This document shows positions 9,690 through 48,783 of a stretch of DNA of 64,000 nt, piece by piece. The translations under genes and the position numbers were made by a program. The first letter of the stretch is position 1, and every line of letters begins with the position of its first letter. A model generated the notes under the pieces. The model saw nothing but the letters and a program-made list of their open reading frames with translations. It did not search any database and was not told the DNA's origin. The DNA is from Sipunculus nudus (lineage: Eukaryota; Annelida; Sipuncula; Golfingiida; Sipunculidae), in contig CM049317.1 in NCBI GenBank assembly GCA_026874595.1, positions 1,107,108-1,171,107 on the forward strand. The letters are read 5' to 3'.

Positions 9690-10191
9690 ATGCCATTATC
9701 AGTAGTCACTACCACTAAGTTGGATATCTACTTTGGGGACCACGTTAAAATGGTGGGCCAAGATCTCAACATTTGCCGGAATTACGCCAGACTGATGATC
9801 CAGAAGCTTGTACAGGCCGTACACAAGGTGGATCCACTTTTCGAGTGCAAACCGATCCACATTGGAAGCTCGAGGGACGGACTGAAAGTGATACAAGGTG
9901 ACGAACATGACGTCAATGTCAGGCTGGTCCTACCTCGTGACGTCAGTCTAATTTTTGACGAGGCACCACGGAACTTTCGCCTGGATAGAAAAGATCGAAC
10001 CCGCCCACAGTGGACCTCTCGCAAAACCAACAAGACGGACCCTGGTTTCATCGCTATCAAACTTAACAATGTTCCGCCCATCCTTAACAACGTGGTTCAC
10101 CAGTCGTACCTTGTACCTTTCTGGGTGAGGCTACGTTTCAGACGTGCCCTGAGGGTGGCAGTGTTTAAAGTACTGACACCTCGCGGTACCG
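9690..10191 (+). CDS. Gene A exon 1 (nucleotidyltransferase core, residues 1-167 plus 1 nt)
   Basis: The ATG at 9690 is chosen because MPLS and the following HVKMVG block align with the start of gene B. The exon holds HIGSSRDGLKVIQGDE, the most conserved stretch between the paralogues. The donor is CG|GTAAGTAAG at 10192, an excellent consensus, and leaves intron phase 1. Confidence 0.9.
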
Positions 10192-16700: not shown

Positions 16701-19700
16701 AGTCCAAGTTACTCCAGTCCCAGTACAAGTCCCAGTCCAAGCTACTCCAGTGCCAGTACAAGTCCCAGTCCAAGCTACTCCAGTGCCAGTACAAGTCCCA
16801 GTCCAAGCTACTCCAGTGCCAGTACAAGTCCCAGTCCAAGTTACTCCAGTCCCAGTACAAGTCCCAGTCCAAGCTACTCCAGTGCCAGTACAAGTCCCAG
16901 TCCAAGCTACTCCAGTCCCAGTACAAGTCCCAGTCCAAGCTACTCCAGTCCCAGTACAAGTCCCAGTCCAAGCTACTCCAGTGCCAGTACAAGTCCCAGT
17001 CCAAGCTACTCCAGTGCCAGTACAAGTCCTAGTCCAAGCTACTCCAGTGCCAGTACAAGTCCCAGTCCAAGCTACTCCAGTCCCAGTACAAGTCCCAGTC
17101 CAAGTTACTCCAGTCCCAGTACAAGTCCCAGTCCAAGCTACTCCAGTCCCAGTACAAGTCCCAGTCCAAGCTACTCCAGTCCCAGTACAAGTCCCAGTCC
17201 AAGCTACTCCAGTCCCAGTACAAGTCCCAGTCCAAGCTACTTCAGTCCCAGTACAAGTCCCAGTCCAAGCTACTCCTGTCCCAGTACAAGTCCCAGTCCA
17301 AGTTACTCCAGTCCCAAGTTACTCCAGTCCCAGTACAAGTCCCAGTCCAAGCTACTCCAGTCCCAGTACAAGTCCCAGTCCAAGCTACTCCTGTCCCAGT
17401 ACAAGTCCCAGTCCAAGTTACTCCAGTCCCAAGTTACTCCAGTCCCAGTACAAGTCCCAGTCCAAGCTACTCCAGTCCCAGTACAAGTCCCAGTCCAAGC
17501 TACTCCAGTCCCAGTACAAGTCCCAGTCCAAGTTACTCCAGTCACAGTACAAGTCCCAGTCCAAGCTATATCCAGTCCCAGTACAAGTCCCAGTCCAAGC
17601 TACTCCAGTCCCAGTACAAGTCCCAGTCCAAGTTACTCCAGTCCCAGTACAAGTCCCAGTCCAAGCTACTCCAGTCCCAGTACAAGTCCCAGTCCAAGCT
17701 ACTCCAGTGCCAGTACAAGTCCCAGTCCAAGCTACTCCAGTGCCAGTACAAGTCCCAGTCCAAGCTACTCCAGTCCCAGTACAAGTCCCAGTCCAAGCTA
17801 CTCCAGTCCCAGTATAAGTCCCAGTCCAAGCTACTCCAGTCCCAGTACAAGTCCCAGTCCAAGCTACTCCAGTCCCAGTACAAGTCCCAGTCCAAGCTAC
17901 TCCAGTCCCAGTACAAGTCAGAGTCCAAGCTACTCCAGTCCCAGTACAAGTCAGAGTCCAAGCTACTCCAGTCCCAGTACAAGTCTCAGTTCAAGCTACT
18001 CCAGTCCGAGTACAATCCCAGTCCAAGCTACTCCAGTGCCAGTACAAGTCCCAGTCCAAGTTACTCCAGTCCCAGTACAAGTCCCAGTCCAAGCTACTCC
18101 AGTCCCAGTACAAGTCCCAGTCCAAGCTACTCCAGTCCCAGTACAAGTCCCAGTCCAAGCTACTCCAGTCCCAGTACAAGTCCCAGTCCAAGCTACTCCA
18201 GTCCCAGTACAAGTCCCAGTCCAAGCTACTCCAGTCCCAGTACAAGTCCCAGTCCAAGCTACTCCAGTCCCAGTACAAGTCCCAGTCCAAGCTACTCCAG
18301 TCCCAGTACAAGTCAGAGTCCAAGCTACTCCAGTCCCAGTACAAGTCAGAGTCCAAGCTACTCCAGTCCCAGTACAAGTCCCAGTCCAAGCTACTCCAGT
18401 CCCAGTACAAGTCCCAGTCCAAGCTACTCCAGTCCCAGTACAAGTCAAGAGTCCAAGCTACTCCAGTCCCAGTACAAGTCCCAGTCCAAGCTACTCCAGT
18501 CCCAGTACAAGTCCCAGTCCAAGCTACTCCAGTCCCAGTACAAGTCAGAGTCCAAGCTACTCCAGTCCCAGTACAAGTCAGAGTCCAAGCTACTCCAGTC
18601 CCAGTACAAGTCCCAGTCCAAGCTACTCCAGTCCGAGTACAATCCCAGTCCAAGCTACTCCAGTGCCAGTACAAGTCCCAGTCCGAGCTACTCCAGTGCC
18701 AGTACAAGTCCCAGTCCAAGCTACTCCAGTGCCAGTACAAGTCCCAGTCCAAGCTACTCCAGTGCCAGTACAAGTCCCAGTCCAAGCTACTCCAGTCCCA
18801 GTACAAGTCCCAGTCCAAGCTACTCCAGTCCCAGTACAAGTCCCAGTCCAAACTACTCCAGTCCCAGTACAAGTCAGAGTCTTTGAGTTACGAGTCCAAG
18901 TCCATCTTCTTCGAGTCCGAATAACTTGGAAGCCGAGTACAAGTCCGATTCCGAGTCCAATGTACATCTTTTAAAATGAAATTTTAAATTGATATTTTAT
19001 ATTACCATGAATATTTTAAAGACAAGTTTATACATGATTTTACTAAACTAAAGTCATATTTTGTATGCCTACTATTCTGTTGGTAGTTCGTTCATGTATG
19101 TTAATATTTTGAAGTATGTGACAGAACGTTTTTCCTACTGGACTCAAGATTGACTCTAACCTCCCAGTCCAATTAAAAGGCCGAGTCAAATATCACTGAA
19201 AAGAATGCTAACGTTAATTTGACCTATCTGAGAAATATGTATATTAGCTGGCCGCTGAAATTAAGGATTTTCGCAGATATCCACATGAGATTCCTCTCTG
19301 TAAAGAGGTCTTAACCAGTGGTCAGGAGCACCGGTTAATAACCGGAGAGTTTGCGAGGCCGTTAAGATTAACGAGAGGTTTGAGATACACCCGTTAATTT
19401 TAACTATGTGCTAACGGGCTGGTTTAGAAGAACTGTTAACTATACCGAGGGCTTCGAGATACCCAGGTTGATAACGAGGCCCTTACGAGGAGCTAACGGG
19501 GGACCACCAAACCACCCGTTAAAAACGAGGAGTTAGCGAGGTGGTTTAGCTTAAAGATGCTTTCGAGATACACCCGTTAATGTTAACGAGCCCGTTAACC
19601 TCTCGTTATTTTAACGAGGGCTTTGAGATACAGGCGCCTGATTGTCCCACGTCCATCCCAAAAGACCGTCTTTTGTTTCTAAAAATAGCATTTACGATGC

Positions 19701-26800: not shown

Positions 26801-29800
26801 GACCGATATTCTCTGGTTCATAAGTGCATAAGTGACTGTACTTTTTAATTGGCCGGCGTCATTTTAAAAGGGACTCCTTGGGAGATCCTCTGCGGAGAGA
26901 GCCACTCACCTCGGAACCTGAAGCATTTAACACCCTCACTCCGAAGTTCTGGGCGCTCGACCGTGACCTGAACAGGTGGGCAGGCATGCATCGAGCACGA
27001 GGCATGGCCGTTTTTGTCTTCATTAATTTGTTTCGCCCGTATTCCAAGGTTAATTCGTGCTCAAGTAACTGTATATTTGTGAATATTCCAGTTGTACTGT
27101 TATTGCTGTAGATACCTGTATATATATGGGGAATGTGGACGTGATAAGATCGAGACCAGTCATTAGTTTTACTGATAATATTGTAGGTGCCTGTATGGAA
27201 TATGTGGACGTGATGAGGTCTGGGCCAGCCATTAGAGTTGTACTGTTCTCATTGTAGATACCTGTGTCGGATATGTGGACGTACTATGGTCTGAGCTAGA
27301 CATAGGAGTTGTACTGTTCTTATTGTAGATATCTGTAATGGATATGTGGACGTGATGAGGTCTGGGCCAGCCATTAGAGTTGTACTTAAGCCGATCCTAG
27401 AAAAACGTATCACCTGCTACATCTACATAGATGTTGCTCCTGTCATACACCTTGGAGCTCGAGAGGTCCCTCCAACATGGCGGCCAGTGTTTGGATCAGA
27501 GGATGGATCCTGGCCAGAAATGGAGGTTAAAAAGAAAATCCTATCCCAGGGAATAAACCTGGTAGCTAAACGGGAACTTGAGTGGTATATATCATACGCT
27601 GAGGGAGAGCGAGACTTCGTGCTTGACATGGTGAAAAACGCTTCCTACAGAAAGCACACGCTCCGTACACTGAAGACCCTGAACACGCAGCACTGGAGCC
27701 CCGGGGGAGAGCCCCTGGTCAGCTCTTATGTACTTAAGGTTGGTGTCGTTTAAATTAATATTAGTTTTTGTGCACATATTTAAGTTAACTTAACAATGCT
27801 TTATCTTCAGCTGAAATTCAGTTTAAACTCAGCAGACTGTTAATCTTCGCATGAAAATGATTTTTTTATGTCAGTCATCCGTCCGTCCCTAGATCTGTCC
27901 GATCATTTGCTTGACAAATTCTGATCATTCGATATAACCATATCATAATCTAAAACAAAAACCTGAAACCACCTAATATGTCCCGACATGTGTCCATGTA
28001 TCACGTTAAAATACACACCATACCGTTCTGAACATCTTGAGTACTGTCCTGCAAGAATTCCCGTCGTGTCAACTGTTGATTTTCAGTTGCTGACTTGACT
28101 TTGGAGTTATTATGACCTAATCATTCAATAAAGACATGACAGTAATCCCTCACCATATGTATAATGAACTTAACGAAGTTAAAAAAATCATACTTTTCAT
28201 TGATTTAGCCTTGCATTAAAACATTTGTTTTTTATTTTACAGATTTTTTTACTTTTAACTAAGGAGAAAGCAGGTTTATTCTGAACTTTATCAAAACAGG
28301 TTATCTAAAACTCCCAGAGGGTTGCAGCAACTTGCTGGTCAGTCAGATCCGTTAGTTTGCATTTGTAAATAAATAAATTTAATGACATATTTTAAAATTC
28401 ATAAAGTTAAAATATATTTCCGCATATGTCGTTCTCCCTATTTGCTTAATTTTTCACCAGCAGTCCCCTGATATAACTAACATGCATGGTTCTCATGTTT
28501 GTTAACGGGTCACTTTTTTCACTGACCAGCTTACTGGCATCACCCACCAGGCACTCATTCATAATTTGTCCCAGGTCTCACAACAACAGCGGGGGGTAAT
28601 TGTCTGGGGGGTAGTTGTCCCAAGGGGTAATTGTCTGGGGGGTAGTTGTCTGGGGGGGGGGGGGGGGGGAGGTAGTTGTCCCAAGGGGTAATTGTCCAGG
28701 GGGTCATTGTCGGGGAGTAATTGTCCGGGGGTAGTTGTCCTAGAGCCGCACAACAGAATCGGTATCGGCATGGTATGAACCCCGGGAGAAAACATTTATT
28801 GAATATTTCGGCCGTGAGATCCCGTGAATGGTAGAATGGGAGATTAGTACAAGTAGTTGGGTTAGGACCGATGATCGCGCTCATCGTCAGGGCAAAATTA
28901 CACGAAATATCAGGTGACTATGCGATCTCCATACTGGCCAACGCCGTATCCTGATTTGTACCTGACGATGCCGATAGACGTCGCATGAAAAGGTCGATGC
29001 AGGCCTGGACAAATTGCGTGAATGATTGTTGCGGTTACGCAAGGGTTACGCAGAATGAAATTGGCGCGAACGGATTTTCGTTTGCGCAAACCAGATGACA
29101 GTATAATTATTAAATGCAGGTTAGATCCAAGTGTAGAGTCACTGTGAACCAATCCTCCCTTAAAGTCCAAGTCTCAGCACGGAGGTCGATTAGGTCATAT
29201 GCTCGTCTTCTATGTATCAAAACACGATGTTATGGTCCATTTAACATTAATCTAGCAATTTAATCAATTAATACGACATTTGAAACTGACGCGTCGAATA
29301 CACTCCGGAAACTGCCGAAAGCCAAGGGGGAAATCCGTGACGTCACGTGTGGTAGTCGTCTCACACAAGCATCATGGCGCGGCGGTGGTCGAAGTAAACA
29401 ATCCGATGAAACTTCCAATGCATCAAGTGACAACCAAGCGTCCACCGACTATGGTTTAAATTTAGTAATTTCGCAAGTATGTCAGAAAGTGATTGTAGTG
29501 ATGTAGGATTTGAAAATCCTTGTGATATTGAACCATTTCGATTTGAGCCATTGGCTCGACGAGGCGAGATCGAAGGAGGGTGAACAGAGTCTGACAGTGA
29601 CAGCCGTGTCAACACAGAATCCGATGAACCGTCTCAGGCGTCTATGGGAGCAGGCACAAATGACTGGTAATTATTTTATTTAACTCTAACATTGAATACA
29701 TCTCAATTATCTGTAATAAATATCGCTCAACCAACGCATGCAGCACTGATTTTTTTATGACAGTCCTAGGTTTTCCTGGAAAGATGGGTCCAAGCTAGCT

Positions 29801-34814: not shown

Positions 34815-37800
34815 TAAAATTATTTTTTTAGATAGGCAAAACATTACATGGGTTACGCAAAACTAAATAGGTAACGCAAACTGGAATGTGTGTAACCTAA
34901 AAATGGGTTGCGCCAATTTCTAATTTGTCCAGGCCTGCGATGTGTTCTCGGTCTGAGATGGCAAGGCTAATGACCAATTAATAACTCAGCTTTACTTTTA
35001 TATAGGAAGGCTAAAGGCAAATTAATAGCTCAAGCCTAAAGGCAAATTATTAGCTCAGCTTTACTTTAATAAAACATGGCCAAAAGCAAAATATTAGCTA
35101 AACAATACTTTAATATGACAAAGCTAAAGGCAAGTTAACAGCTTAATTTTACTTAAATATGAAAAGGCAGGCAAATAAATAGCTCAGATTTACTTTTTAT
35201 GACAGGCTAAAGGCAAATCAAAAGCTCAGCTTTACTTTAATATGACCAAGCTAGAGGCAAATTAATAGCTCGGCTTAACTTTAATATAACAAGGCAGGAA
35301 AATTAATAGTTAAGCTTTATACTTCAATGTGACAGGGCTAAAAACAAATTAATAATCAAGCTTTACTTAACTATAACAAAGCTAAAAGCACATTAAAAAA
35401 TTAACAGCTCAGCTTTACTTTAACGTGACAAGGCTAAAAGTAAATTAAAAGCTCAGCTTTACTTTATTATGATAAGGCTAAAGGCAAATTAAAGTTCAGC
35501 TTTACTTTCATCTGACAAGGCTAAAGGCAAATTGATAGTTCAGCTTTAATTTAATATGACAAGCAGGCAAATAAATAGCTCAGCTTTACACTATACGCCA
35601 GGTGAAAGGCAAATTAATAGCTCAGCTTTACTTTAATATGACATAATGGTTAACTTTATTTTATTTTGTCACAGAACGCCTTGCTGTGGTTGTGTCAGTT
35701 TTCTGGTACACAATGGTTAGCTTTATTTTATGATGTTACAGAACGCCTTGCTGTGGTTGTGGCAGTTTTCTGGTACACAATGGTTAACTTTATTTTATGC
35801 TGTGGTTGTGTCAGTTTTCTGGTACACAATGTTTAACTTTCTTTTATGTTGTCACAGAACGCCTTGCTGTGGTTGTGTCAGTTTTCTGGTACACAATGGT
35901 TAACTTTCTTTTATGTTGTCACAGAACGCCTTGCTGTGGTTGTGTCAGTTTTCTGGTACACAATGTTTAACTTTCTTTTATGTTGTCACAGAACGCCTTG
36001 CTGTGGTTGTGTCAGTTTTCTGGTACACAATGGTTAACTTTCTTTTATGTTGTCACAGAACGCCTTGCTGTGGTTGTGTCAGTTTTCTGGTACACAATGT
36101 TTAACTTTCTTTTATGTTGTCACAGAACGCCTTGCTGTGGTTGTGGCAGTTTTCTGGTACACAATGTTTAACTTTCTTTTATGTTGTCACAGAACGCCTT
36201 GCTATGGTTGTGGCAGTTTTCTGGTACACAACGGTTAACTTTCTTTTATGTTGTCACAGAACGCCTTGCTGTGGTTGTGGCAGTTTTCTGGTACACAACG
36301 GTTAACTTTCTTTTATGTTGTCACAGAACGCCTTGCTGTGGTTGTGGCAGTTTTCTGGTACACAACGGTTAACTTTCTTTTATGTTGTCACAGAACGCCT
36401 TGCTGTGGTTGTGGCAGTTTTCTGGTACACAACGGTTAACTTTCTTTTATGTTGTCACAGAACGCCTTGCTGTGGTTGTGGCAGTTTTCTGGTACACAAC
36501 GGTTAACTTTCTTTTATGTTGTCACAGAACGCCTTGCTGTGGTTGTGGCAGTTTTCTGGTACACAACGGTTAACTTTCTTTTATGTTGTCACAGAACGCC
36601 TTGCTGTGGTTGTGGCAGTTTTCTGGTACACAACGGTTATTTTTCTTTTATGTTGTCACAGAACGCCTTGCTGTGGTTGTGGCAGTTTTCTGGTACACAA
36701 CGGTTATTTTTCTTTTATGTTGTCACAGAACGCCTTGCTGTGGTTGTGGCAGTTTTCTGGTACACAACGGTTAACTTTCTTTTATGTTGTCACAGAACGC
36801 CTTGCTGTGGTTGTGGCAGTTTTCTGGTACACAACGGTTAACTTTCTTTTATGTTGTCACAGAACGCCTTGCTGTGGTTGTGGCAGTTTTCTGGTACACA
36901 ACGGTTAACTTTCTTTTATGTTGTCACAGAACGCCTTGCTGTGGTTGTGGCAGTTTTCTGGTACACAACGGTTAACTTTCTTTTATGTTGTCACAGAACG
37001 CCTTGCTGTGGTTGTGGCAGTTTTCTGGTACACAACGGTTAACTTTCTTTTATGTTGTCACAGAACGCCTTGCTGTGGTTGTGGCAGTTTTCTGGTACAC
37101 AACGGTTAACTTTCTTTTATGTTGTCACAGAACGCCTTGCTGTGGTTGTGGCAGTTTTCTGGTACACAACGGTTAACTTTCTTTTATGTTGTCACAGAAC
37201 GCCTTGCTGTGGTTGTGGCAGTTTTCTGGTACACAACGGTTAACTTTCTTTTATGTTGTCACAGAACGCCTTGCTGTGGTTGTGGCAGTTTTCTGGTACA
37301 CAACGGTTAACTTTCTTTTATGTTGTCACAGAACGCCTTGCTGTGGTTGTGGCAGTTTTCTGGTACACAACGGTTAACTTTCTTTTATGTTGTCACAGAA
37401 CGCCTTGCTGTGGTTGTGGCAGTTTTCTGGTACACAACGGTTAACTTTCTTTTATGTTGTCACAGAACGCCTTGCTGTGGTTGTGGCAGTTTTCTGGTAC
37501 ACAACGGTTAACTTTCTTTTATGTTGTCACAGAACGCCTTGCTGTGGTTGTGGCAGTTTTCTGGTACACAACGGTTAACTTTCTTTTATGTTGTCACAGA
37601 ACGCCTTGCTGTGGTTGTGGCAGTTTTCTGGTACACAACGGTTAACTTTCTTTTATGTTGTCACAGAACGCCTTGCTGTGGTTGTGGCAGTTTTCTGGTA
37701 CACAACGGTTAACTTTCTTTTATGTTGTCACAGAACGCCTTGCTGTGGTTGTGGCAGTTTTCTGGTACACAACGGTTAACTCTTTTTATGTTGTCACAGA

Positions 37801-40124
37801 ACGCCTTGCTGTGGTTGTGGCAGTTTTCTGGTACACAACGGTTAACTTTCTTTTATGTTGTCACAGAACGCCTTGCTGTGGTTGTGGCAGTTTTCTGGTA
37901 CACAACGGTTAACTTTCTTTTATGTTGTCACAGAACGCCTTGCTGTGGTTGTGGCAGTTTTCTGGTACACAACGGTTAACTTTCTTTTATGTTGTCACAG
38001 AACGCCTTGCTGTGGTTGTGGCAGTTTTCTGGTACACAACGGTTAACTTTCTTTTATGTTGTCACAGAACGCCTTGCTGTGGTTGTGGCAGTTTTCTGGT
38101 ACACAACGGTTAACTTTCTTTTATGTTGTCACAGAACGCCTTGCTGTGGTTGTGGCAGTTTTCTGGTACACAACGGTTAACTTTCTTTTAAGTTGTCACA
38201 GAACGCCTTGCTGTGGCTGTGGCAGTTTTCTGGTACACAACGGTTAACTTTCTTTTATGTTGTCACAGAACGCCTTGCTGTGGTTGTGGCAGTTTTCTGG
38301 TACACAACGGTTAACGTTCTTTTATGTTGTCACAGAACGCCTTGCTGTGGTTGTGGCAGTTTTCTGGTACACAACGGTTAACTTTCTTTTATGTTGTCAC
38401 AGAACGCCTTGCTGTGGTTGTGGCAGTTTTCTGGTACACAACGGTTAACTTTCTTTTATGTTGTCACAGAACGCCTTGCTGTGGTTGTGGCAGTTTTCTG
38501 GTACACAACGGTTAACTTTCTTTTATGTTGTCACAGATCGCCTTGCTGTGGTTGTGGCAGTTTTCTGGTACACAACGGTTAACTTTCTTTTATGTTGTCA
38601 CAGAACGCCTTGCTGTGGTTGTGGCAGTTTTCTGGTACACAACGGTTAACTTTCTTTTATGTTGTCACAGATCGCCTTGCTGTGGTTGTGGCAGTTTTCT
38701 GGTACACAACGGTTAACTTTCTTTTATGTTGTCACAGAACGCCTTGCTGTGGTTGTGGCAGTTTTCTGGTACACAACGGTTAACTTTCTTTTATGTTGTC
38801 ACAGAACGCCTTGCTGTGGTTGTGGCAGTTTTCTGGTACACAACGGTTAACTTTCTTTTATGTTGTCACAGAACGCCTTGCTGTGGTTGTGGCAGGTTTC
38901 TGGTACGCAATGGTTAACTTTCTTTTATGTTGTCACAGAACGCCTTGCTGTGGTTGTGGCAGTTTTCTGGTACGCAATGGTTAACTTTCTTTTATGTTGT
39001 CACAGAACGCCTTGTTGTGGTTGTGGCAGTTTTCTGGTACGCAATGGTTAACTTTCTTTTATGTTGTCACAGAACGCCTTGCTGTGGTTGTGGCAGTTTT
39101 CTGGTACGCAATGTTTAACTATCTTTTATGTTGTCAAAGAACGCTTTGCTGTGGTTGTGGCAGTTTGCTGGTACGCAATGGTTAACTTTCTTTTATGTTG
39201 TAACAGAACGCCTGGCTGTGGTTGTGGCAGTTTTCTGGTACGCAATGTTTAACTTTCTTTTATGTTGTTACAGAACGCCTGGCTGTGGTTGTGGCAGTTT
39301 TCTGGTACGCAATGGTTAACTTTCTTTTATGTTGTTACAGAACGCCTGGCTGTGGTTGTGGCAGTTTTCTGGTACGCAATGGTTAACTTTCTTTTATTTT
39401 GTTACAGAACGCCTTGCTGTGGTTGTGGCAGTTTTCTGGTACGCAATGGTTAACTTTCTTTTATGTTGTTACAGAACGCCTTGCTGTGGTTGTGGCAGTT
39501 TTCTGGTACACAATGGTTAACTTTATTTTATTTTGTCACAGAATTACTTGCTGTGGTTGTGTCAGTTTTTTGGTACACAATATTTAACTTTATTTTATGT
39601 TGTCACAGAACGCCTTGCTGTGGTTGTGTCAGTTTTCTGGTACATAATGGTAAGCTTATTTTATGTTGTCACAGAACGCCTTGCTGTGGTTGTGTCTAAG
39701 GAAGCCAAGTGACACAGACTGGCAGCATCACTATTGGGCAGATCGTTTCCGGGAGCTGGTAGTCAGAGTACAGCAGAGTGTCCTAGAGAAAAAGATGCCA
39801 TTATTCTTCCATCCTGAGATTAACCTGTTGGCCAGGGTACCAAAGCAAAGGTTGGAACTGTTCCTGACTTTCCTTGGTGAATTCATGACAAGGCCCTTGT
39901 TTTTTTTCGGATCTGATCAAAACCAGAAATCACAGCGAAGTGACAATTCAAATAGAGAACCAGCGTCTCAAGAGAAAGAGCCATCTTACAGAAATAAGGA
40001 ATTTGATTCGTGTCTCCCCTCAGCCTGCTCCGATAACCTTGTAAAGTTTACCGCATCTGACCCCTTCTTTATTCAGCAATGGGAACTCTGTACTAAATCA
40101 AGAATAGCACCACCGCAACCTTGA
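9690..40124 (+). CDS. Gene A: Mab-21 / cGAS-like receptor family protein (3 exons, 453 aa)
   Basis: Joining 9690-10191, 27329-27738 and 39675-40124 gives an uninterrupted 453-residue protein. Residues 59-61 are the nucleotidyltransferase GSS, followed by the metal-binding pair E72 and D74 in DEHDVNV. D202 in YIDVAP fits the third catalytic acid, as in cGAS. The middle exon carries Mab-21 C-terminal-domain features (WYISYAEGE, LRTLKTLNTQHW) and exon 3 adds its last helices (LFFHPEINLL). The family makes cyclic (oligo)nucleotide second messengers after binding nucleic acid; ligand and product cannot be read here. I see no cGAS-type zinc thumb. Residues after about 379 are a polar, low-complexity tail with no membrane helix. 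Introns of 17.1 and 11.9 kb are filled with repeats. All splice sites are GT-AG and their phases match gene B, so the gene looks intact. The first AATAAA I noticed after the stop is at 41275. Confidence 0.88.
10224..10640 (+). repeat. Two tandem 212-bp copies of a TTAACGAG-rich MITE-like repeat
   Basis: Copies begin GGGGCCTGTATCTCGAAGCC at 10224 and 10436. They contain CGTTAA/TTAACG motifs in both orientations. The opening is the inverse of the ends of the repeats at 19620-19640 and 26680-26700, so all belong to one mobile family with inverted termini. They lie just after the gene A exon 1 donor. Confidence 0.7.
10641..11575 (+). repeat. Direct duplication, copy 1 (intron 1 of gene A)
   Basis: This stretch, starting at CACACGTCC...AAAAGACGGTC, is repeated in the same orientation at about 19640-20750. 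Shared landmarks include AACACACGCAGTAGC, GCGCCACAGTCTGTAGAATG and ATTGTTCTAAATATGAATTTA. No protein is apparent. Confidence 0.75.
12190..12244. repeat. (TA)n microsatellite
   Basis: About 27 uninterrupted TA dinucleotides. Confidence 0.95.
13671..13731. repeat. (TA)n microsatellite with one GA interruption
   Basis: About 30 TA dinucleotides with a single G near 13694. Confidence 0.95.
15107..18880 (+). repeat. 33-bp minisatellite, about 114 units, open in several reading frames
   Basis: The unit is 33 bp, built from 11-bp sub-blocks (CAAGCTACTCC, AGTCCCAGTAC, AAGTCCCAGTC). Because 33 is divisible by three, every frame stays open unless a unit carries a stop. This gives KSQSKLLQSQY, PVQVPVQATPV and SPSYSSPSTSP on the plus strand and YWDWSSLDWDL on the minus strand. 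Variants CAGTGCC, TCAGAG and GTCCGTG are scattered. Occasional 11-bp losses (for example near 17310 and 17430) and small indels shift the frame. It lies within intron 1 of gene A and I do not call it coding. Confidence 0.93.
19285..19640 (+). repeat. TTAACGAG-family MITE-like repeat
   Basis: Starts CATGAGATTCCTCTCTGTAA and ends GGGCTTTGAGATACAGGCG. A second copy is at 26450-26700 with the same start and end. The end is the inverse of the start of the repeats at 10224. Confidence 0.65.
19640..20750 (+). repeat. Direct duplication, copy 2
   Basis: The same landmarks as 10641-11575 occur in the same order. This copy has about 170 bp of extra sequence near 20270-20450. Both copies are preceded by TTAACGAG-type repeats, suggesting that the repeat and its flank were duplicated together. 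Confidence 0.75.
20752..20830. repeat. (TA)n microsatellite
   Basis: About 75 bp of TA repeats with a few TG interruptions at the right end. Confidence 0.95.
20831..21900. other. Intron 1 sequence without recognised features
   Basis: AT-rich sequence with no long ORF, tandem repeat or recognised mobile element. Confidence 0.5.
21940..25575 (+). repeat. Dispersed family of about 150-bp repeat units interrupted by a Helitron-like insertion
   Basis: Units share TGCCTGCAGATACTGGCCTG, GGCAGATAATGACCAGTTAC and TTGACC...CTCCTGAACATAGAAAATTTCATG. They occur near 21950-22090, 24275-24395, 24430-24580, 25255-25395 and 25435-25560. A second unit starting AGCTTATATCTC(A/C)GGAAC recurs near 24604, 24861 and 25139. 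The Helitron-like element splits the first two units. Confidence 0.65.
22091..24272 (-). mobile_element. Non-autonomous Helitron-like element, copy 1 (minus orientation)
   Basis: Read on the minus strand, the 5' end is TCTATATATTAATAGCG (24272 downward). The 3' end is a CCGTGC-GTA-GCACGG hairpin (22102-22116), then GGTAATTG and CTAG (22094-22091), followed by T. TC...hairpin...CTAG|T is the classic Helitron layout. A second 5' end of the same sequence lies inside at 22402, so a 312-bp element (22091-22402) is nested in or fused to the 2.18-kb one. No Rep/helicase ORF is present. A second copy in opposite orientation is at 52926-55056. Confidence 0.72.
25576..26449. other. Intron 1 sequence without recognised features
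   Basis: AT-rich sequence with short ORFs only; nothing recognised. Confidence 0.5.
26450..26700 (+). repeat. TTAACGAG-family MITE-like repeat, shorter copy
   Basis: Begins CATGAGATTCTTCTCTATAA, contains GGTCAGGAGCACCGGTTAAC and ends GGTTTCGAGATACAGGAGCC. It is about 100 bp shorter than the copy at 19285. Confidence 0.65.
26878..27060 (+). other. Unrecognised GC-richer open stretch before gene A exon 2
   Basis: This 180-bp block is richer in GC than its surroundings and is open on both strands. The plus frame reads MGDPLRREPLTSEPEAF then FWALDRDLNRWAGMHRARG. I cannot assign it. It may be a remnant of a mobile element or an alternative exon. Confidence 0.2.
27112..27328 (+). repeat. Three decayed copies of the gene A exon 2 start and its 3' splice site
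   Basis: Copies start at 27112, 27187 and 27258, and the real exon at 27329, giving steps of 75, 71 and 71 bp. Each copy contains a GTAG acceptor, an ATACCTGT-like start, GGATATGTGGACGT and the block around GCCAGCCATTAGAGTTGTAC. The 27187 copy is nearly identical to the exon over about 45 nt. Confidence 0.75.
27329..27738 (+). CDS. Gene A exon 2 (third catalytic Asp and Mab-21 C-terminal domain)
   Basis: The acceptor TTATTGTAG ends at 27328 and the donor AAG|GTTGGT begins at 27739. The exon is 410 nt, the same length as gene B exon 2, and encodes 137 residues including the split codon. YIDVAPVIHL, GINLVAKRE and SSYVLK align to the paralogue. Three decayed copies of its first ~55 nt plus acceptor lie directly upstream. 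Confidence 0.88.
27739..28560. other. Start of gene A intron 2, nothing recognised
   Basis: AT-rich sequence with no tandem repeat or ORF of note. Confidence 0.5.
28585..28745 (+). repeat. G-rich minisatellite
   Basis: Imperfect repeats of GGGGGTAGTTGTCC and GGGGTAATTGTC, with a run of about 18 G near 28650-28670. G-quadruplex formation is possible. Confidence 0.75.
28999..29090 (+). repeat. Left inverted repeat of a 5.9-kb element
   Basis: GCAGGCCTGGACAAATT at 28999-29015 is repeated in reverse complement at 34922-34938. Both ends also carry GAAATTGGCGC and GTTACGCAA motifs just inside. The two ends bracket the THAP-type and RFEPL-type remnants. Confidence 0.5.
29337..29352 (+). promoter_or_regulatory. 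Fused CRE/E-box palindrome, left copy
   Basis: GTGACGTCACGTGTGG contains TGACGTCA overlapping CACGTG. An exact inverted copy is at 33435-33450. Each lies about 115-140 bp upstream of the start of one of the two inward-facing ORF remnants. Confidence 0.45.
29479..29670 (+). pseudogene. Remnant resembling the N-terminal part of a P2X7 C-terminal-like domain
   Basis: From the ATG at 29479 the frame reads MSESDCSDVGFENP, then EPFRFEPLARRGEIEGG, a TGA, then an acidic Ser-rich stretch ending GAGTNDW just before GTAATT. The PFRFEPL-type motif followed by an acidic stretch and a Trp before a cysteine-rich exon resembles the P2X7 C-terminal (ZNFX1/P2RX7-like) domain of many invertebrate genes. The Cys-rich continuation was not found. 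The in-frame stop and missing exon suggest a dead copy. Confidence 0.35.
31500..31785 (-). pseudogene. Decayed fragment of a multicopy THAP-associated (transposon-like) protein
   Basis: The minus frame contains KFIVFHSQLKEMISLCP, then CTHEQVILVKETAVQVSEIC, then NNCNLHRKWRSQ. The spacing of Cys residues and the ending KW-SQ resemble a repetitive protein family common in aquatic invertebrates and often fused to THAP domains. Downstream reading soon meets stops, so it is degenerate. The family assignment is from memory of the motif, not a search. Confidence 0.38.
32112..32355 (-). pseudogene. Acidic exon-like fragment, probably of the same THAP-associated element
   Basis: The minus frame reads SGCPVNVSTKNAGVQCSL, then a stretch ending in a run of Asp/Glu. 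A T-x-N-x-x-V-Q-C segment before an acidic linker is typical of the region between the THAP domain and the Cys-rich part in such proteins. It lies between the THAP-like start and the KFIVF fragment in the expected order. Confidence 0.33.
33146..33322 (-). pseudogene. THAP-like zinc-finger N-terminus, probably frameshifted
   Basis: The minus-strand ATG at 33322 begins MTKRGVLGGCNNTNKDSVNV, close to THAP starts (basic residues, one Cys, then an H-x-x-P-like segment). After GKRW the expected VRQRRADW continuation is in another frame, so the copy looks frameshifted; the C-terminal C-x2-H of the domain is not evident. THAP domains bind DNA and occur in several transposases. Confidence 0.4.
33435..33450 (-). 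promoter_or_regulatory. Fused CRE/E-box palindrome, right copy
   Basis: CCACACGTGACGTCAC is the exact reverse complement of 29337-29352, upstream of the minus-strand THAP-like start at 33322. Confidence 0.45.
33560..34740. other. Intron 2 sequence without recognised genes
   Basis: AT-rich, no long ORF; ends in a (CT)n(AT)n microsatellite at about 34749-34812. Confidence 0.5.
34749..34812. repeat. (CT)n(AT)n compound microsatellite
   Basis: About 15 CT followed by about 16 AT dinucleotides. Confidence 0.95.
34845..34938 (-). repeat. Right inverted repeat of a 5.9-kb element
   Basis: This is the reverse complement of the repeat at 28999-29090, with clustered GGTTACGCAA and GGTTGCGCCAATTTC motifs ending in TTTGTCCAGGCCTGC. 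Confidence 0.5.
34960..35645 (+). repeat. 44-bp tandem array in gene A intron 2
   Basis: About 14 diverged units of a 44-bp motif (AGGCAAATTAATAGCTCAGC then TTTACTTTAATATGACAAGG). It abuts the 67-bp splice-site array at about 35645. No coding potential is evident. Confidence 0.8.
35646..39674 (+). repeat. 67-bp tandem array of the gene A exon 3 acceptor and exon start (about 60 copies)
   Basis: The unit is about 67 bp: a pyrimidine-rich stretch, TTTTATGTTGTCACAG, then AACGCCTTGCTGTGGTTGTG, then GCAGTTTTCTGGTACACAAC. The 20 nt after the AG are identical to the start of gene A exon 3, and the last unit runs straight into the true exon at 39675. Central units are almost identical. Edge units vary (CACAATGG, CGCAATGG, GTGTCAG) and one unit near 35783-35800 lacks the acceptor. 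Edge units share GTGTC with the real exon, whereas the homogenised centre has GTGGC. The array lies inside gene A intron 2. Confidence 0.92.
39675..40124 (+). CDS. Gene A exon 3 (Mab-21 C-terminal helices and polar tail)
   Basis: The exon starts AAC GCC TTG CTG TGG (NALLW) after TTGTCACAG and runs 149 codons to TGA. It aligns with gene B exon 3 through KPSD, the FFHPEINLL block and about residue 75 of the exon. After that it is unrelated: a Ser/Asn/Glu/Lys-rich tail with no hydrophobic segment. The acceptor and first ~22 nt are the last unit of the 67-bp array that precedes it. Confidence 0.88.
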   Translation, partial: NALLWLCLRKPSDTDWQHHYWADRFRELVVRVQQSVLEKKMPLFFHPEINLLARVPKQRLELFLTFLGEFMTRPLFFFGSDQNQKSQRSDNSNREPASQEKEPSYRNKEFDSCLPSACSDNLVKFTASDPFFIQQWELCTKSRIAPPQP

Positions 40125-40134
40125 CAACTATTAT

Positions 40135-41100
40135 GTCCCACACACAGCTTTAATCACGTGTTATCTCCCACACACAGATCTAGTCACGTGTTATCTCACA
40201 CGCACAGTTAAAATCACGTGTTTTCTCCCACACACAGCCTTTATTACGTATTATTTCCCACACACAGCTAAAATCATATGTTATCTCCCGCACACAGCTT
40301 TAATTACGTGTTATCTCCCACAAACAGGTGTAATCACGTGTTATCTCCCTCACGCATTTTATGTACGTGTTATCTCCGACAAGCAGCTCTAATAACGTGC
40401 TATCTCCCGCACACAGCTTAATCACGTGTTATCTCCCGCACACAGCTAAAATCACGTGTTATCTCCAACACACAGCTCTAATCGCATGTTATCTCCCGCA
40501 CACAGCTTTAGTCACGCGTTACCTTTCGCACACAGCTTTAATCACGTGTTATCTCCCACACACAGGTCTAATCGCGTGTTATCTCCTACACCTAGCTTAA
40601 ATCACGTGTTTTCTCCCGCACACAGTTTTAATCACGTGTTATCTCCCACACACAGCTTTAATCGCGTGTTATCTCCAGCACACAACTTTAATCACGTGTT
40701 ATCTCCCACAGGCAGCTCTAATCATGTGTTATCTCCTGCACACAGCTGTAATCACGTGTTTTCTCCCCACACAGCTGTAATCACGTGTTTTCTCCCGCAC
40801 ACATTTTTAATCACGTGGTATCTCCCACTCACTTTATTAATCACTTTACCTATACGTTCATCTTTCATCATGTATTATAACCCACACAACACATTACACC
40901 CTACTCAGCTTTAATCACGTGTTACAGCCTGCAAAGCTTCGATCACGTGATATACCCCACATAGCTTTGATCACGTGTGATACTCCACACCGCTTCGGTC
41001 ACGTGTCATAACCCTCATAGATTTCACAACGTGTCATAATCCACACAGCCGTAATCACTGGTTTATGCCCTCACTGCTTTGATCACGTGTTATAACCAAC
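40135..41100 (+). repeat. 30-bp tandem array with an E-box (CACGTG) in most units
   Basis: The unit is CACACAGCTTTAATCACGTG followed by TTATCTCCCA. About 32 units run from just after the gene A stop codon to 41100. Most retain CACGTG; some have CGCGTG or CATGTG, and units become irregular after 40820. It lies in the 3' flank (or 3' UTR) of gene A and 1.2-2.1 kb upstream of the gene B TATA box. Confidence 0.9.
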
Positions 41101-42374: not shown

Positions 42375-42861
42375 ATGCCGCTGTCAGAGATCTGTAATTG
42401 TCATCTGGAGAAATATTTCAATAAGCACGTGAAGATGGTGGGTTGGGAACTGAATGCGTGCCGTGATTACGCCAGGGGCGTCATTGACAAAATTGTGTGT
42501 AACATTCACAAAACAGACCCGCTCTTCAGTTCCAAACCCGTCCATATCGGCAGCTCCAGGGACGGGCTGAAGGTGATACAGGGAGACGAATACGACGTCA
42601 ACGTCCCCATGCTGTTCCCTTCAGAATGTAAACTAACATTAGATGACACACTCCGTCAGTATAAGCATTTAAATGGTGCTGCATTACGGGGAACCCGTCA
42701 TGAAGACGAGACGAGCCCAGGTTATGTAGGTGTCCGTCTGAACGTCACCCCGCCAGCGATAAAGAAGCTCGTTCACGAGTCGTATCTGATCCCGTCCCTG
42801 GTTCGTCAGCGCTTCAGACGAGCACTGTCTGCGGCCATTAAAAAGACACTCAATAATGGAC
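42375..42861 (+). CDS. Gene B exon 1 (nucleotidyltransferase core)
   Basis: The ATG at 42375 lies about 105 bp after the TATA box and encodes MPLSEI. The donor is GGAC|GTAAGT at 42862, phase 1, as in gene A. The exon encodes 162 residues plus one nucleotide and carries the GSS and ExD motifs. Confidence 0.9.
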
Positions 42862-45800
42862 GTAAGTTGTTCTCAAATAATAAAAATATTCGTAATTTAA
42901 TGAAATTTTAGATACAGATATTGTTACATTTAGCTCATAGAATAATTCAAATGATCGAAGCATAAGTTTAAAGTGATATTCAATTGCTCTGACGCAACAG
43001 TGAGCACAAATTTAGAGAGCCATGAAATCACAATACCATTTTGACTTATTTATTTGATTTATTTTGATCTTAAAACAGGATTGGCATTTCATAATAGAGT
43101 GACAACAGGATAATGATAATAATAGACATTCAGTTTACGACCACCAACGGGACCTCGATAAAGTAATCGCATATTGAGGTGGTCGTCAAAGCGAAGTCTT
43201 GTATAAAAAGCAAAAAAAAAAAAAGTAAATAAAAAAATTGGTACCTTGAACAAGTGGTGATTTTAAGGTGGTTACCAAAATGAGGTCGTTAAGCGAGGTT
43301 TTACTATACGTGAAAATGATCTAAATGACTTAGTTAATGTTGATCTCATGATTGCAGATACATGTCTGGGTTACCTACAACTACCGCCAACCGGTCCCGC
43401 AGAAAGAGTGGTTCTCAACCCGAGCTCTGAGAAAGAAATATCAACCAAAATCTATATAGACTTTGCCCCCTCCATTCATCTAAATCCCTCCAAGGAACTA
43501 CTAAAATGGTGGCCAATTCTGGGTTCCAAAGATGGCTGCTGGCCGGAGACTCATATCAAGAAAGAGGTTCGTTCACTGGGAATAAATCTGGTGGCCAAGC
43601 GAGACTACGGATGGTACGTGTCGTACGCGGAGGGAGAGAGCAGACTCGTGTTACATATGTTAAAGGACGTGTCATGTAGGAAGCAGGCGCTCCGCATCCT
43701 AAAAACCCTTAACACCCAGTACTGGAGCAGAGATGGGGACGCCTTGATAAGCTCGTACATACTCAAGGTACTGGTACAACACACGGGGTGTGTTGTACCC
43801 ACGTAGTACACCCGTGTGTTGTACCCACATAGTACACCCCGTGTGTTGTACCCATGTAGTACACCCCGTGTGTTGTACCCCCGTAGTACACCCCGTGTGT
43901 TGTACCCACGAAGTACACCCCGTGTGTTGTACCCACGAAGTACACCCCGTGTGTTGTACCCACGTAGTACAACCCGTGTGTTGTTCCCACGTACTTCACC
44001 TCGTGTGTTGTACCCACATAGTACAGCCCGTGTTGTACCCACGCAGTACACCCCGTGTGTTTTACCCACGTAGTACACCCGTGTGTTGTACCCACGTAGT
44101 ACACCCGTGTGTTGTTCCTACGTAGTACAGCCCGTGTGTTGTACAGACGTGGTACACCCGTGTGTTGTTCCCACGTAGTACACCCCGTGTGTTGTACCCA
44201 CGTAGTACACTTCGTGTGTTGTACCCACATAGTACAGCCCGTGTGTTGTACCCACGTAGTAAACCCCGTGTGTTGTACCCACATACACACGGGGTGTACT
44301 ACGTGGGTACAACACACGGGGTATACTACGTGGGTACAACACACGGGGTGTACTACGTGGGTACAACACAAAGGCTGTACTACGTTGGTACAACACACGG
44401 GCTGTACTACATGGGTACAACACATGGGCTGTACTACATGGGTACAACACACGGGGTGTACTACGTGGGTACAACACACGGGCTGTACTTCGTGGGTACA
44501 ACACACGGGCTGTACTACGTGGGAACAAAACACGGGTGTACTACGTGGGTACAACACAGGGGGTGTACTACGTTGGTACAACACACGGGTGTATTTCGTG
44601 GGTACAACACACGGGGTGTACTACATGGGTACAACACGGGCTGTACTACGTGGGCACAACACACGGGGTGTTCTACTTGGGTACAACACACGGGCTGCAC
44701 TACATGGGTACAACACATGGGGTGTACTACGTGAGTACAACACACGGGCTGTACTACGTCGGTACAACACACTGGGTGTACTATGTGGGTACAACACACG
44801 GGGTGTACTACGTGGGTACAACACATGGGTGTACTACGTGGGTACAACACACGGGGTGAACTACGTGGGTACAACACACGGGGTGTACTACGTGGGTACA
44901 ACACACGGGGTGAACTACGTGGGTACAACACACGGGCTGTACTACGTGAATACTACACACTGGGTGTACTACGTGGGTACAACACATCGGCTGTACTAAG
45001 TGGGAACAACACACGGTTGTATTACATGGGTACAACACACGGGGTGTACTGTGTGGGTACAACACGGGCTGTACTATGTGGGTACAACACAGGGGGTGAA
45101 CTACGTGGGTACAACACACGGGGTGTACTATGTGGGTACAACAGACGGGGTGTACTACGTGGGTACAACACACGGGGTGTACTACGTGAGTACAACACAC
45201 GGGCTGTACTACGTGGATACAACACACGGGGTGTACTCCGTAGGTACAACACACGGGGTGTACTACGTGGGTACAACACATGGGGTGTACTACGTGAGTA
45301 CAACAAACGGGCTTTACTACGTGGATACAACACAAGGGGTGTACTACGTGGGTACAACACACAGGGTGTACTACGTGGGTACAACACAGGGGTGTACTAC
45401 GTGGGTACAACACACGGGCTGTAAGGCGAGGGTTTGTTATGGGTTCATAACTGAAATGAGATTTATGGTGATCCTCTTATAGAAAAGCGTAGCAAAGGTA
45501 CATTAGGATATTCGCAAAATAAACAGAGAAAATCGAGTCAATTAAAAAAATGTCTTACCAATAATGGTTAATAAACTGTTCTGGAGCAAAAATAATAAAT
45601 AATATAGGAGTGTTCTAATAAGGAAATTGCTAAGATTTCAGCTCCTGTTGATTTTCTGTAGCCTGCCACGCTGTCATGTTTATCTTTTGTCGTTTGACCC
45701 TGTCCTTGACCTTATTCATATTAGTTGTCCTTTGATTATTGTCCCAAATTAATTATAGTGAATATTGTTTCCATAATTTCCATTTAAAAAAGTGGTTTAA

Positions 45801-48783
45801 AACTTAAAAGATATAGCCATAAACTTTAAAAAAGGACTTATTGCAGCCATATATTTTATTAACTCTTAAGCATTATTTATGAACTAAGATGTTTTGGAAT
45901 AGATTTATTAGCAATAAATTACTCTGGTACACAAGAGGTCAGGTCACAGGTTAGGTCATGGGTGACCAGAGTTCATGCCTCAGCAACATGGCTGTGTCAG
46001 TGATGGTCTTCTGCTCTTCTCTTCATGATAAAATGCTGTTATATCATATATAACATAAACAGAACACTCCGCATGTATGGAAACTGACAAATAAAGGATA
46101 TAACGGTAGAGTTAACATAGTTTAAGCTGCATCTTATTCGTTCCTCCTGATATATCAGAAGGGCCGCTACGATATTTTGTAAGTACACATTCGAGGCTGA
46201 GAATAGCCCGGGTCTGCCGGTGTGTAATTCTCAGACTTGCACCAAGGCTAGGCGAGGTTATAACGCGCGGGCTGTAAGGCGAGGGTCTATCACATCGGCT
46301 GTACGACGTGGGTTTACACACGGGCTGTGGTTATCATATAGAGTGGCGATGAATTATATATTAAGTGAAGGAGGATATTTTCTTGTCAGGTCCTGATTGA
46401 TAGAGTATAGATAATATAAACTGTGTCAAAAAGGAGATTCTATGCATGATAACCATATGAAGGTGGATTGTATTCAATTATATTAACCTGATCCCCTTGA
46501 GCATTATGATTAAGACATGATAGTAAGCCATGGCGCAAGGTCAGTTCCCAGAATATTTACCAATGAATCATGTTTCTCTGAGAAACGACCAGGTTACCTC
46601 ACAATACAAATACCTCTCTAATAACGACCAGGTACTTCTCCTTACAAACACCTCTCTGATAACGACAAGGTAACCTCTCCATACAAACACCTCTCTGATA
46701 ACGACCAGATTCCCACTCCATACAAATACCTTTCTGATAATGATCAGGTTACCTCAATACAAATATCTCTCTGATAATGACCTAGTAACCTCTTAACAGA
46801 AATACCTCTGATAACGATCAAGTGACCTCACAATGCATTACCTCTCTGATAATGAACAGGTTACCACTCCATACAAATACCTCTCTGATAACGACAAGGT
46901 AACCTCTCTATACAAACACCTCTCTGATAACCACAAGTTAACCTCTGGCATACAAACACCTCTCTGATAACGACAAGGTCACCTCACAATACAAATACCT
47001 CTCTGGTAACGACCTGGTTACCACCCCATACGAATAACATCTGATAATAATCAAGTTAGCTCTCAATACAAATACCCTCTCTGATAACGAACAGGTAACC
47101 TCACAATACAAATACCTCTCTGGTAACGACCTGGTTACCACCCCATACGAATAACATCTGATAATAATCAAGTTAGCTCTCAATACAAATACCCTCTCTG
47201 ATAACGAACAGGTAACCTCACAATACAAATACCTCTCTGATAACGACAAGGTAAACTCTCAATACAAACAACTCTGTGATAACGACCAGATTCCCACTCC
47301 ATACAAATACCTTTCTGATAATGATCAGGTTACCTCACAATACAAATATCTCTCTGATAACGACAAGGTAACCTCTCCATACAAACACCTCTCTGATAAC
47401 GACCAGATTCCCACTCCATACAAATACCTTTCTGATAACGAACAGGTAACCTCACAATACAAATACCTCTCTGATAACGACAAGGTAACCTCTCCATACA
47501 AACACCTCTCTGATAACGACCAGATTCCCACTCCATACAAATACCTTTCTGATAATGATCAGGTTACCTCACAATACAAATATCTCTCTGATAATGACCT
47601 AGTAACCTCTTAACAGAAATACCTCTGATAACGATCAAGTGACCTCACAATGCATTACCTCTCTGATAATGAACAGGTTACCACTCCATACAAACACCTC
47701 TCTGATAACGACCTGGTAACCTCTCTATACAAACACCTCTCTGATAACCACAAGTTAACCTCTGGCATACAAACACCTCTCTGATAACGACAAGGTCACC
47801 TCACAATACAAATACCTCTCTGGTAACGACCTGGTTACCACCCCATACGAATAACATCTGATAATAATCAAGTTAGCTCTCAATACATATACCCTCTCTG
47901 ATAACGAACAGGTAACCTCACAATACAAATACCTCTCTGGTAACGACCTGGTTACCACCCCATACGAATAACATCTGATAATAATCAAGTTAGCTCTCAA
48001 TACAAATACCTTTTGATAACGACCAGGTAACATCTCTATACAAACACCTCTCTGATAACCACAAGTTAACCTCTGGCATACAAACACCTCTCTGATAACG
48101 ACAAGGTAAACTCTCAATACAAACAACTCTGTGATAACGACCAGGTAAAATCTCCAAACAAACCCCGCTTTGATAACGATAAGATTAACCCTCCATACAA
48201 ACACCTGTTTGAAACGACTATTTAACCTCACTCGTATAAATACATCTCTATTAAAGCAGCTAACGTCAGTAATTTTTTAGTATCACCTGTATTTGTGCCT
48301 TCCTTTTCATTGTTTGCGAATTATAAATGACTTATCAGCTAATACAATATTTTTGTGGATATTTGACAGAACGCTCTGTTCTGGGAGTGTTTTTGGAAGC
48401 CGAGTGACAGTGAGTGGCAGCTGCCTGATTTGGCGGACCGTGTGCGGGATCTCCTGGTCAGCCTGGAGCAGCGAGTCCGATACGGGCACATGCCGATGTT
48501 CTTTAACCCTGAGGTCAATCTGCTGGTCGACGTTCCTGATGAAGCGCTACAACAGTTCCATGTCTGTCTCCAACGATTCAAAAAGTCCCCGCTCTCAGTG
48601 TTGTGCGATGATTCACACGTGACCCAATGTCATTGTAATTCAGAGAATTGTGGAGATGTAGCAACAAAAGCGGCATCTATTGGTCGAGTTCTGAGTGATT
48701 ACTCGGGCATGGTCGCCTGGGTGCTGGTTGCTCTGGCTCTTGTTTTATATGGGTATTTGTATATTAAATTAAAAATGAAATGA
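42375..48783 (+). CDS. Gene B: Mab-21 / cGAS-like receptor family protein with C-terminal membrane helix (3 exons, 436 aa)
   Basis: Joining 42375-42861, 43358-43767 and 48370-48783 gives 436 residues. The catalytic signature is intact: GSS at 59-61, E72 and D74 in DEYDVNV, and D197 in IYIDFAP. The C-terminal Mab-21 domain follows (WYVSYAEGE, LRILKTLNTQYW, FFNPEVNLL). Residues 378-393 hold four Cys and two His, and residues 413-430 form a hydrophobic helix followed by YIKLKMK. This suggests a tail-anchored, cytosol-facing enzyme on an internal membrane, which is inference. By eye it is about half identical to gene A, with the same intron positions and phases, so the pair arose by tandem duplication. 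No signal peptide is visible. A kappaB-like site and a TATA box lie upstream. A possible poly(A) signal AATAAA is at 49191. Confidence 0.9.
43130..43312 (-). mobile_element. MITE-like repeat in gene B intron 1
   Basis: The right end GGTCGTTAAGCGAGGTTTTA and the left end TTTACGACCACC are loosely inverted. The phrase 'gtggtcgtTAAGCGAGGTTTTACT' type end is common in short DNA transposons of marine invertebrates (from memory). Confidence 0.4.
43358..43767 (+). CDS. Gene B exon 2 (third catalytic Asp and Mab-21 C-terminal domain)
   Basis: The acceptor ATGATTGCAG ends at 43357 and the donor AAG|GTACTG begins at 43768. The exon is 410 nt, the same as in gene A. It contains IYIDFAPSIH, GINLVAKRD and SSYILK. 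A 27-bp tandem array begins within about 10 bp of the donor. Confidence 0.9.
43776..44285 (-). repeat. 27-bp tandem array, left arm (inverted)
   Basis: About 19 units of the 27-bp motif in the orientation CCCGTGTGTTGTACCCACGT. It begins about 8 bp after the gene B exon 2 donor. At 44285 the array flips orientation. Confidence 0.9.
44286..45424 (+). repeat. 27-bp tandem array, right arm
   Basis: About 42 units of GGTGTACTACGTGGGTACAA plus CACACGG. This is the reverse complement of the left arm, making a palindromic array with a stem potential of about 500 bp. A stray degenerate unit lies at 46255-46330. Confidence 0.9.
45425..46555. other. Gene B intron 2, between the two arrays
   Basis: AT-rich with one stray fragment of the 27-bp array (46255-46330, sharing CGGGCTGTAAGGCGAGGGT with the array end at 45416). 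Nothing else is recognised. Confidence 0.5.
46560..48245 (+). repeat. 39-bp tandem array with higher-order structure in gene B intron 2
   Basis: The unit is ACCTCTCTGATAACGACAAG then GTAACCTCACAATACAAAT, about 43 copies, ending about 125 bp before exon 3. A multi-unit block (CTCTGGCATACAAACACC ... CCACCCCATACGAATAACA) recurs at about 46945-47215 and 47755-48010. This shows higher-order duplication. Confidence 0.9.
48370..48783 (+). CDS. Gene B exon 3 (C-terminal helices and membrane anchor)
   Basis: The acceptor ATATTTGACAG ends at 48369 and the exon opens AAC GCT CTG TTC TGG (NALFW), matching gene A. It runs 137 codons to TGA. The last 25 residues are a single hydrophobic helix (MVAWVLVALALVLYGYLY) and a short Lys-rich end, absent from gene A. 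Confidence 0.9.
   Translation, partial: NALFWECFWKPSDSEWQLPDLADRVRDLLVSLEQRVRYGHMPMFFNPEVNLLVDVPDEALQQFHVCLQRFKKSPLSVLCDDSHVTQCHCNSENCGDVATKAASIGRVLSDYSGMVAWVLVALALVLYGYLYIKLKMK

Follow-up and report, generated by a model that had tools for sequence, protein, structure and literature searches.

The locus analysed here raises the question of how an exon can be spliced correctly when some 60 copies of its own acceptor and first nucleotides stand in front of it. Throughout, the window denotes the whole stretch of DNA analysed, 64,000 nucleotides in length (G000:C12:1107108-1171107). It contains the gene concerned, gene A, and a neighbouring paralogue, gene B. The parts of gene A referred to below are as follows.

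9690..10191, + strand: gene A exon 1 (open frame; 50% identity with gene B exon 1)
27090..27386, + strand: tandem array at exon 2, the putative exon-2 mirage, with a 71-bp unit and 4 AG acceptors (Tandem Repeats Finder and acceptor listing)
27329..27738, + strand: gene A exon 2 (entry phase 1; donor AAG/GTTGGT; 56% identity with gene B exon 2)
35641..39696, + strand: 67-bp tandem array at exon 3, the putative exon-3 mirage, with 60 acceptor-bearing copies (Tandem Repeats Finder and unit-by-unit listing)
39675..40124, + strand: gene A exon 3 (acceptor before 39675; the stop codon ends at 40124)

The start codon of gene A is the ATG at 9690, and exon 1 ends in the donor G/GTAAGT after 10191. Joined, the three exons encode a protein of 453 aa, with 0 stops and 0 frameshifts in 453 codons, in which Pfam detects Mab-21 (PF03281, 4.6e-11) and Mab-21_C (PF20266, 1.1e-14); searched separately, the exon 2 region 27295-27738 matches Mab-21 at 1.7e-6 and exon 3 matches Mab-21_C at 1.1e-9. 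The closest PDB match by sequence is cGAS-like receptor 1 (8gjy, 9.1e-8); the nucleotidyltransferase half on its own gives a weak match, and its N-terminal alignment with 8gjy is not significant. Read by eye, gene A has the motifs GSS...DEHD and IDVAP, which may correspond to the active-site motif, GS plus an acidic triad. The product of gene A is an intact Mab-21/cGAS-like protein that resembles an immune DNA/RNA sensor. With its Mab-21 and Mab-21_C domains it is a putative member of the animal cGAS-like receptors (cGLRs). Large numbers of cGLR genes have been reported in some cnidarians and bivalves (PMC9980059), and a genome search with Mab-21_C gave at least 118 matches at E up to 1, at least 105 of them above the curated cut-off. 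All genome searches were made in the 1.43-Gb assembly of 153 contigs, and the match counts are lower bounds.

Like gene A, gene B (42375-48783) is built of three exons; the aligned identities between the two are 50, 56 and 41%, the last across 93 aligned residues only.

42375..42861, + strand: gene B exon 1 (donor GGAC/GTAAGT)
43358..43767, + strand: gene B exon 2 (acceptor without duplication)
48370..48783, + strand: gene B exon 3 (acceptor without duplication; C-terminal hydrophobic segment)

Between the two genes pN is 0.35 and pS 0.75 (0.29 versus 0.65 in the core of exon 3), with pS near saturation, and a recent loss of function could not be dated from these values; the tail of gene A exon 3 has 24% identity with gene B (59 columns). 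The last part of gene B exon 3 encodes MVAWVLVALALVLYGYLYI, a strongly hydrophobic segment that precedes KLKMK and is possibly a tail anchor. A hydrophobic C-terminal segment is absent from gene A exon 3 and from the seven scorable paralogues on contig C4 (hydropathy at most 1.07). Gene B and the eight C4 paralogues support the exon boundary at 39675, and in all eight of the latter (8/8) an AG directly precedes the residue matching the start of gene A exon 3. In one of them (L046, G000:C4:6649000-6658900, at 8648) exon 3 reaches a stop after five residues from the acceptor, and this paralogue may be a broken copy. Downstream of gene A exon 3 the first AATAAA is at 41275, so that the last exon would extend about 1.6 kb from 39675 and each upstream copy used would add 67 nt; transcript length alone would not exclude the near upstream acceptors. 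A 30-bp array of 23.5 copies (40131-40832), whose unit also contains CACACACAG, begins 6 nt past the gene A stop, in the presumed 3' UTR.

The first-pass annotation of this DNA had reported about 60 tandem copies of an acceptor plus exon start ahead of exon 3, and on this point Tandem Repeats Finder and our unit-by-unit listing agree. The former gives a period of 67, 58.2 copies and 98% matches over 35798-39694, with flanking rows reaching back to 35641; the latter gives 60 acceptors, from 35675 to the true site at 39675, the final copy overlapping the first 20-22 nt of exon 3. Among the 59 acceptor spacings 56 are 67 nt, two are 66 nt and one is 116 nt, the last being one further unit whose acceptor has been lost. 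In the consensus unit TTAAC, which is branch-point-like and lies from -25, is followed by a T-rich tract, then by CACAG and by 20-22 nt of exon 3; the exon boundary itself has thus been amplified, as had been claimed, in copies that resemble acceptors. Counted exactly over the 60 units including the true one, AG is present in 60/60, TTAAC in 56/60 and CACAG in 53/60, the first 20 nt of exon 3 in 50/60 and the first 22 nt in 7/60. The further claim that every unit carries CACAG and the exact first 20 nt is consequently correct for most units, but not for all. More than half of the units (33/60) are identical to the consensus, and the changes cluster at both edges of the array; the homogenised centre suggests recent turnover. 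Our catalogue of distinct changes from the consensus holds 33 entries, one of them a gap, and omits one 66-nt unit (indel) as well as 14 nt on the left side of the first unit. With 33 distinct changes over 67 positions only about one change in the AG would be expected, too few to tell whether its retention in 60/60 units is meaningful. A genome search with the 67-mer gave at least 60 matches, all at the exon-3 array among the matches listed, and a single copy of the array locus was found in the assembly.

The true unit is among those furthest from the consensus and is one of the four (4/60) without TTAAC. At approximately the position of that motif in most copies it carries GTAAGC (39650..39655, + strand), the only GTRAG donor-like word within 35640-39674. 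Splicing inside the array by means of donors in the units was considered and rejected, since this word lies 25 nt before 39675, and 25 nt is generally too short for an intron. Between -20 and -5, pyrimidines make up 0.81 of both a central copy and the first copy and 0.75 of the true site, the 11 other acceptors of these genes ranging from 0.44 to 0.75. By eye, most copies appear to match or exceed the true site as acceptors, which makes the success of the last acceptor hard to explain, and we found no sequence-based reason favouring 39675. An RNA fold that hides or offers copies was likewise rejected, as no special fold was seen in three central units (z = 0.00) or in the last units plus exon 3 (z = 0.92).

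The exon came first, because the homologous exon starts in gene B and in the C4 paralogues have no array; the exon part of the 67-bp unit is derived from gene A's own exon 3. A search for exon-start copies crossing an acceptor gave 59 at exon 3 and 3 at exon 2 of gene A, compared with 0/2 in gene B, 0/16 in the C4 genes (where as much as 6 kb upstream was covered, the exon 2 starts being tblastn edges) and 0/20 at myosin exons. The myosin exons were 20 of 76 matches, hand-chosen, with starts placed at profile-match edges, and since about 200-260 nt upstream of each was searched, the zero excludes nearby copies only. Copying of acceptors throughout the family can be rejected for gene B and the eight C4 genes (0/18 acceptors). 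One myosin exon (L072) does have an array beside it that resembled another mirage; this case was rejected, as the array stops about 40 nt short of the match on its upstream side and so leaves the exon untouched.

The second array of gene A, at exon 2, was absent from the earlier reading of the window and was found on re-analysis of the gene. Tandem Repeats Finder describes it as 3.6 copies of 71 bp with 77% matches (27133-27386). Its AG acceptors lie before 27112, 27187 and 27258, the true one being before 27329, and ungapped matches to the first 58 nt of exon 2 number 20 (with indels), 52 and 45 at the three copies, respectively. Reading from any of the three stops after 23 to 48 aa. The 71-bp unit gave at least 3 matches genome-wide, only at gene A exon 2 among the matches listed. 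Since its copies are more diverged, the exon-2 array is probably older than the exon-3 array. The word AGTTGTACT occurs once in the intron ahead of the first copy (27090), twice within the array (27236 and 27307) and once in exon 2 (27378); this 9-nt intron/exon match is a plausible seat of the first exon-2 duplication.

The consequences of splicing to an upstream acceptor of exon 3 can be read directly by translation. As had been proposed, only the last acceptor gives the full gene A protein: the number among the 59 upstream ones is 0/59. The specific stops that had been noted are present as well, in the second-last unit a TAA after GGTACA and in central units a stop in the third repeat. The added tails are 59 aa in 49 cases, 53, 126 and 81 aa in two cases each, and 74, 56, 18 and 12 aa in one each; of the 49 tails of 59 aa, 24 share one identical sequence. 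The period of 67 carries the reading through all three frames, and for that reason the copy of entry hardly matters. The 59-aa tail has a hydropathy of 2.08 over 19 residues, compared with 2.23 for the C-terminal segment of gene B and a maximum of 1.2 in gene A exon 3. In 5000 shuffles of the intronic part, 7.7% reached 2.08 and 3.4% did so with a tail of at least 59 aa, and 30% reached 1.6, in a test designed after the tail had been seen; the hydrophobicity is thus mildly unusual, and the case for a meaningful hydrophobic tail is weak. No coding constraint was seen on the array copies, 3/32 distinct substitutions producing an earlier stop relative to 25/201 possible ones (about 4 expected).

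Structures of this type have been described in lancelets, whose genes carry intron-exon boundary minisatellites called mirages (PMC3087553). In the globin gene BflGb6 the copies comprise the 3' end of an intron and the 5' part of exon 2, and there are 6 and 3 of them in two haplotypes (PMC3087553); further mirages are known in troponin C and, in imperfect form, in PGBD5 (PMC3902484). For troponin C, splicing is stated to be regular, and for PGBD5 this is suggested (PMC3902484); the Adh3 data and globin RT-PCR were taken to suggest that mirages do not interfere with regular splicing (PMC3087553). The authors of the globin study also noted a potential of the copied signals to act as cryptic sites, and they proposed that new introns can arise from mirages (PMC3087553). 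The gene A arrays resemble these mirages in having tandem units that span a splice boundary, with exon sequence and splice signals, and in that the boundaries of the clusters escape homogenisation (PMC3087553, PMC3902484). In gene A the unit spans the boundary, its exon part comes from the gene's own exon, and the AG is kept in many units. The differences are ones of scale and setting: the exon-3 array has 60 copies versus the 6 and 3 of the BflGb6 haplotypes, its unit is 67 bp versus 150-160 bp in BflGb6 and 10-72 bp in Adh3, and gene A, an immune-type gene, has two acceptor mirages. Judged by its organisation, the exon-3 array is a mirage, larger than the described ones with which we compared it.

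Two other precedents are more distant. An interferon-induced gene reportedly contains a minisatellite whose repeats carry splice sites; those are donors, whereas the gene A arrays carry acceptors. Decoy exons and decoy splice sites promote intron retention, as in SF3B1, OGT and the Drosophila P element, in effects shown with splicing reporters, and the choice of true sites in other genes is disturbed by decoy sites (PMC8706089). By analogy, the gene A copies may likewise be extra sites able to compete with the true one, but the part of that source considered describes no tandemly repeated exon edge (PMC8706089). In the literature searched, which consisted mostly of listings and had subscription papers largely outside its scope, we recognised no description of dozens of acceptor copies.

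Several explanations of the exon-3 array can be weighed against this evidence. The first-pass annotation had suggested that the array could be a decoy that determines how much functional receptor is made, with copy number as a dial. In such a scheme the copies would vie for the donor of exon 2, most transcripts would encode a truncated receptor, and the amount of full-length protein would follow from copy number. Truncations in the last exon are not classical targets of nonsense-mediated decay (NMD), and since exon 3 is apparently the last exon, truncated messages from gene A would not belong to them. In addition, not one of the 59 acceptor-like copies yields the full protein, most of them seem at least the equal of the true site, and decoy sites do disturb true sites in other genes (PMC8706089). 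Nevertheless, such a role appears unlikely: lancelet mirages are reported without disturbance of splicing (PMC3087553, PMC3902484), the copies have neither coding constraint nor a special fold, and the absence of an array from gene B and the eight paralogues gives no sign of conserved use. The amplified boundary that had been reported is thus real, but nothing in the precedents, the coding content or the RNA fold backs the regulatory role attached to it. A more elaborate form, in which an acceptor array variable in the germline controls how much cGAS-like receptor is full-length and how much truncated, and the truncated form dampens the full-length one, seems to us quite improbable. If it were true, copy number and distance from exon 3 would fix the odds among near-identical 3' splice sites, and the truncated product would be the nucleotidyltransferase part without that portion of Mab-21_C which exon 3 encodes, mostly with a 59-aa hydrophobic tail.

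It is also doubtful that gene A is failing, that is, yields little functional message and is drifting towards a pseudogene. Its two mirages both bring stops, its true acceptor has no TTAAC and sits in a unit far from the consensus, and the exon 3 tail is poorly conserved relative to gene B (24% over 59 columns); against this stand 453 codons free of stops and frameshifts and a pN well below pS, exon 3 core included. That 49/59 upstream acceptors lead to a tail of 59 aa, identical in 24 cases and with a hydropathy (2.08, attained by 7.7% of shuffles) near that of the gene B segment (2.23), could mean that most copies supply about the same alternative, membrane-inserted C-terminus. We regard this as very improbable, as the shuffles indicate that T-rich repeats come near such values by chance (30% reach 1.6), the test was post hoc, the seven scorable C4 paralogues do not exceed 1.07, and the copies are without coding constraint. 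The least probable reading is that the length of the array is an assembly artefact: with 33/60 units identical, misassembly might be suspected, but the edge units are diverged and ordered, marker units occur internally, the locus is single, and contigs of up to 98 Mb are among those seen in the assembly.

The explanation we favour, and consider probable, is that the exon-3 array is a tolerated, recently expanded mirage that is spliced out as intron. Lancelet precedents together with the lack of coding constraint and of a special fold lead us to prefer such tolerance to a decoy dial, and because gene A is intact with pN below pS, the simplest reconciliation is that enough regular splicing occurs. 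The history would begin when a segment reaching from within intron 2 to about 22 nt past the start of exon 3 was duplicated in tandem. The locus is array-prone, and the duplication would probably have come about through slipped replication or unequal exchange. The array would then have grown, homogenising from the centre outward, to 60 copies; diverged edge units beside 33/60 identical units are the classical picture of a growing minisatellite. The exon 2 acceptor would have been copied on a smaller scale, at the 9-nt intron/exon match. Most likely the whole array is intron and the functional mRNA joins exon 2 to 39675, while some use of upstream acceptors probably leaks, giving a receptor that would lose the exon-3 part of Mab-21_C and end in a short nonsense tail. 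The structure, the polarity from exon to array, the intact gene, the stops and the absence of arrays at the other acceptors checked are observed directly; we infer the mode of growth, normal splicing and leakage.

The locus is a natural experiment on 3' splice-site choice, with about 60 nearly identical modules of branch point, pyrimidine tract and AG in series. The choice would show in transcript length, since the number of repeats retained in a message is fixed by the upstream acceptor used. Compared with the described cases, the locus also raises the copy number of mirages considerably, and it has two of them in one gene. By its genome size of 1.43 Gb, about three times that of lancelets, the host is probably not a lancelet, although one of its muscle myosin exons is about equally close to squid, scallop and vertebrate proteins, and a search for a molluscan haemocyanin domain gave no match, as did its controls. 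A host outside the lancelets would suggest that gene structure is changed by boundary minisatellites more widely than the lancelet examples indicate.

The surroundings of gene A are themselves rich in repeats. Tandem arrays with a period of at least 10 make up 25.0% of the window, versus 1.25% in a 78-kb region of C4 and 5.5% in a 46-kb region of C12 at 13.8 Mb, comparison regions that surround other Mab-21 genes and were not picked at random. By this measure the window is array-prone, and both acceptors of gene A were caught. Intron 1 of gene A contains a 33-bp array of about 114 copies (15099-18875) with long open frames on both strands. In intron 2 of gene B, two 27-bp arrays with reverse-complementary units form a 1.6-kb head-to-head minisatellite (43788-45423), the first beginning about 20 nt past the donor, and a 39-bp array of 42 copies (46575-48218) stops about 150 nt before the exon 3 acceptor without crossing it. 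By eye, three further pairs of arrays, at 4963-5247/6477-6739, 7417-7509/8429-8518 and 56158-56308/59588-60029, seem to have reverse-complementary units; such paired arrays recall the arms of foldback-type transposons. Across the whole window, Rfam gave no family at gathering score. Elsewhere in the assembly, contig C123 (L075, G000:C123:5000-14900) carries cbb3-oxidase-like bacterial genes, named by eye, and nine near-equal COX1 matches lie on C60-C89, which suggests that some contigs of the assembly are bacterial and perhaps come from symbionts.
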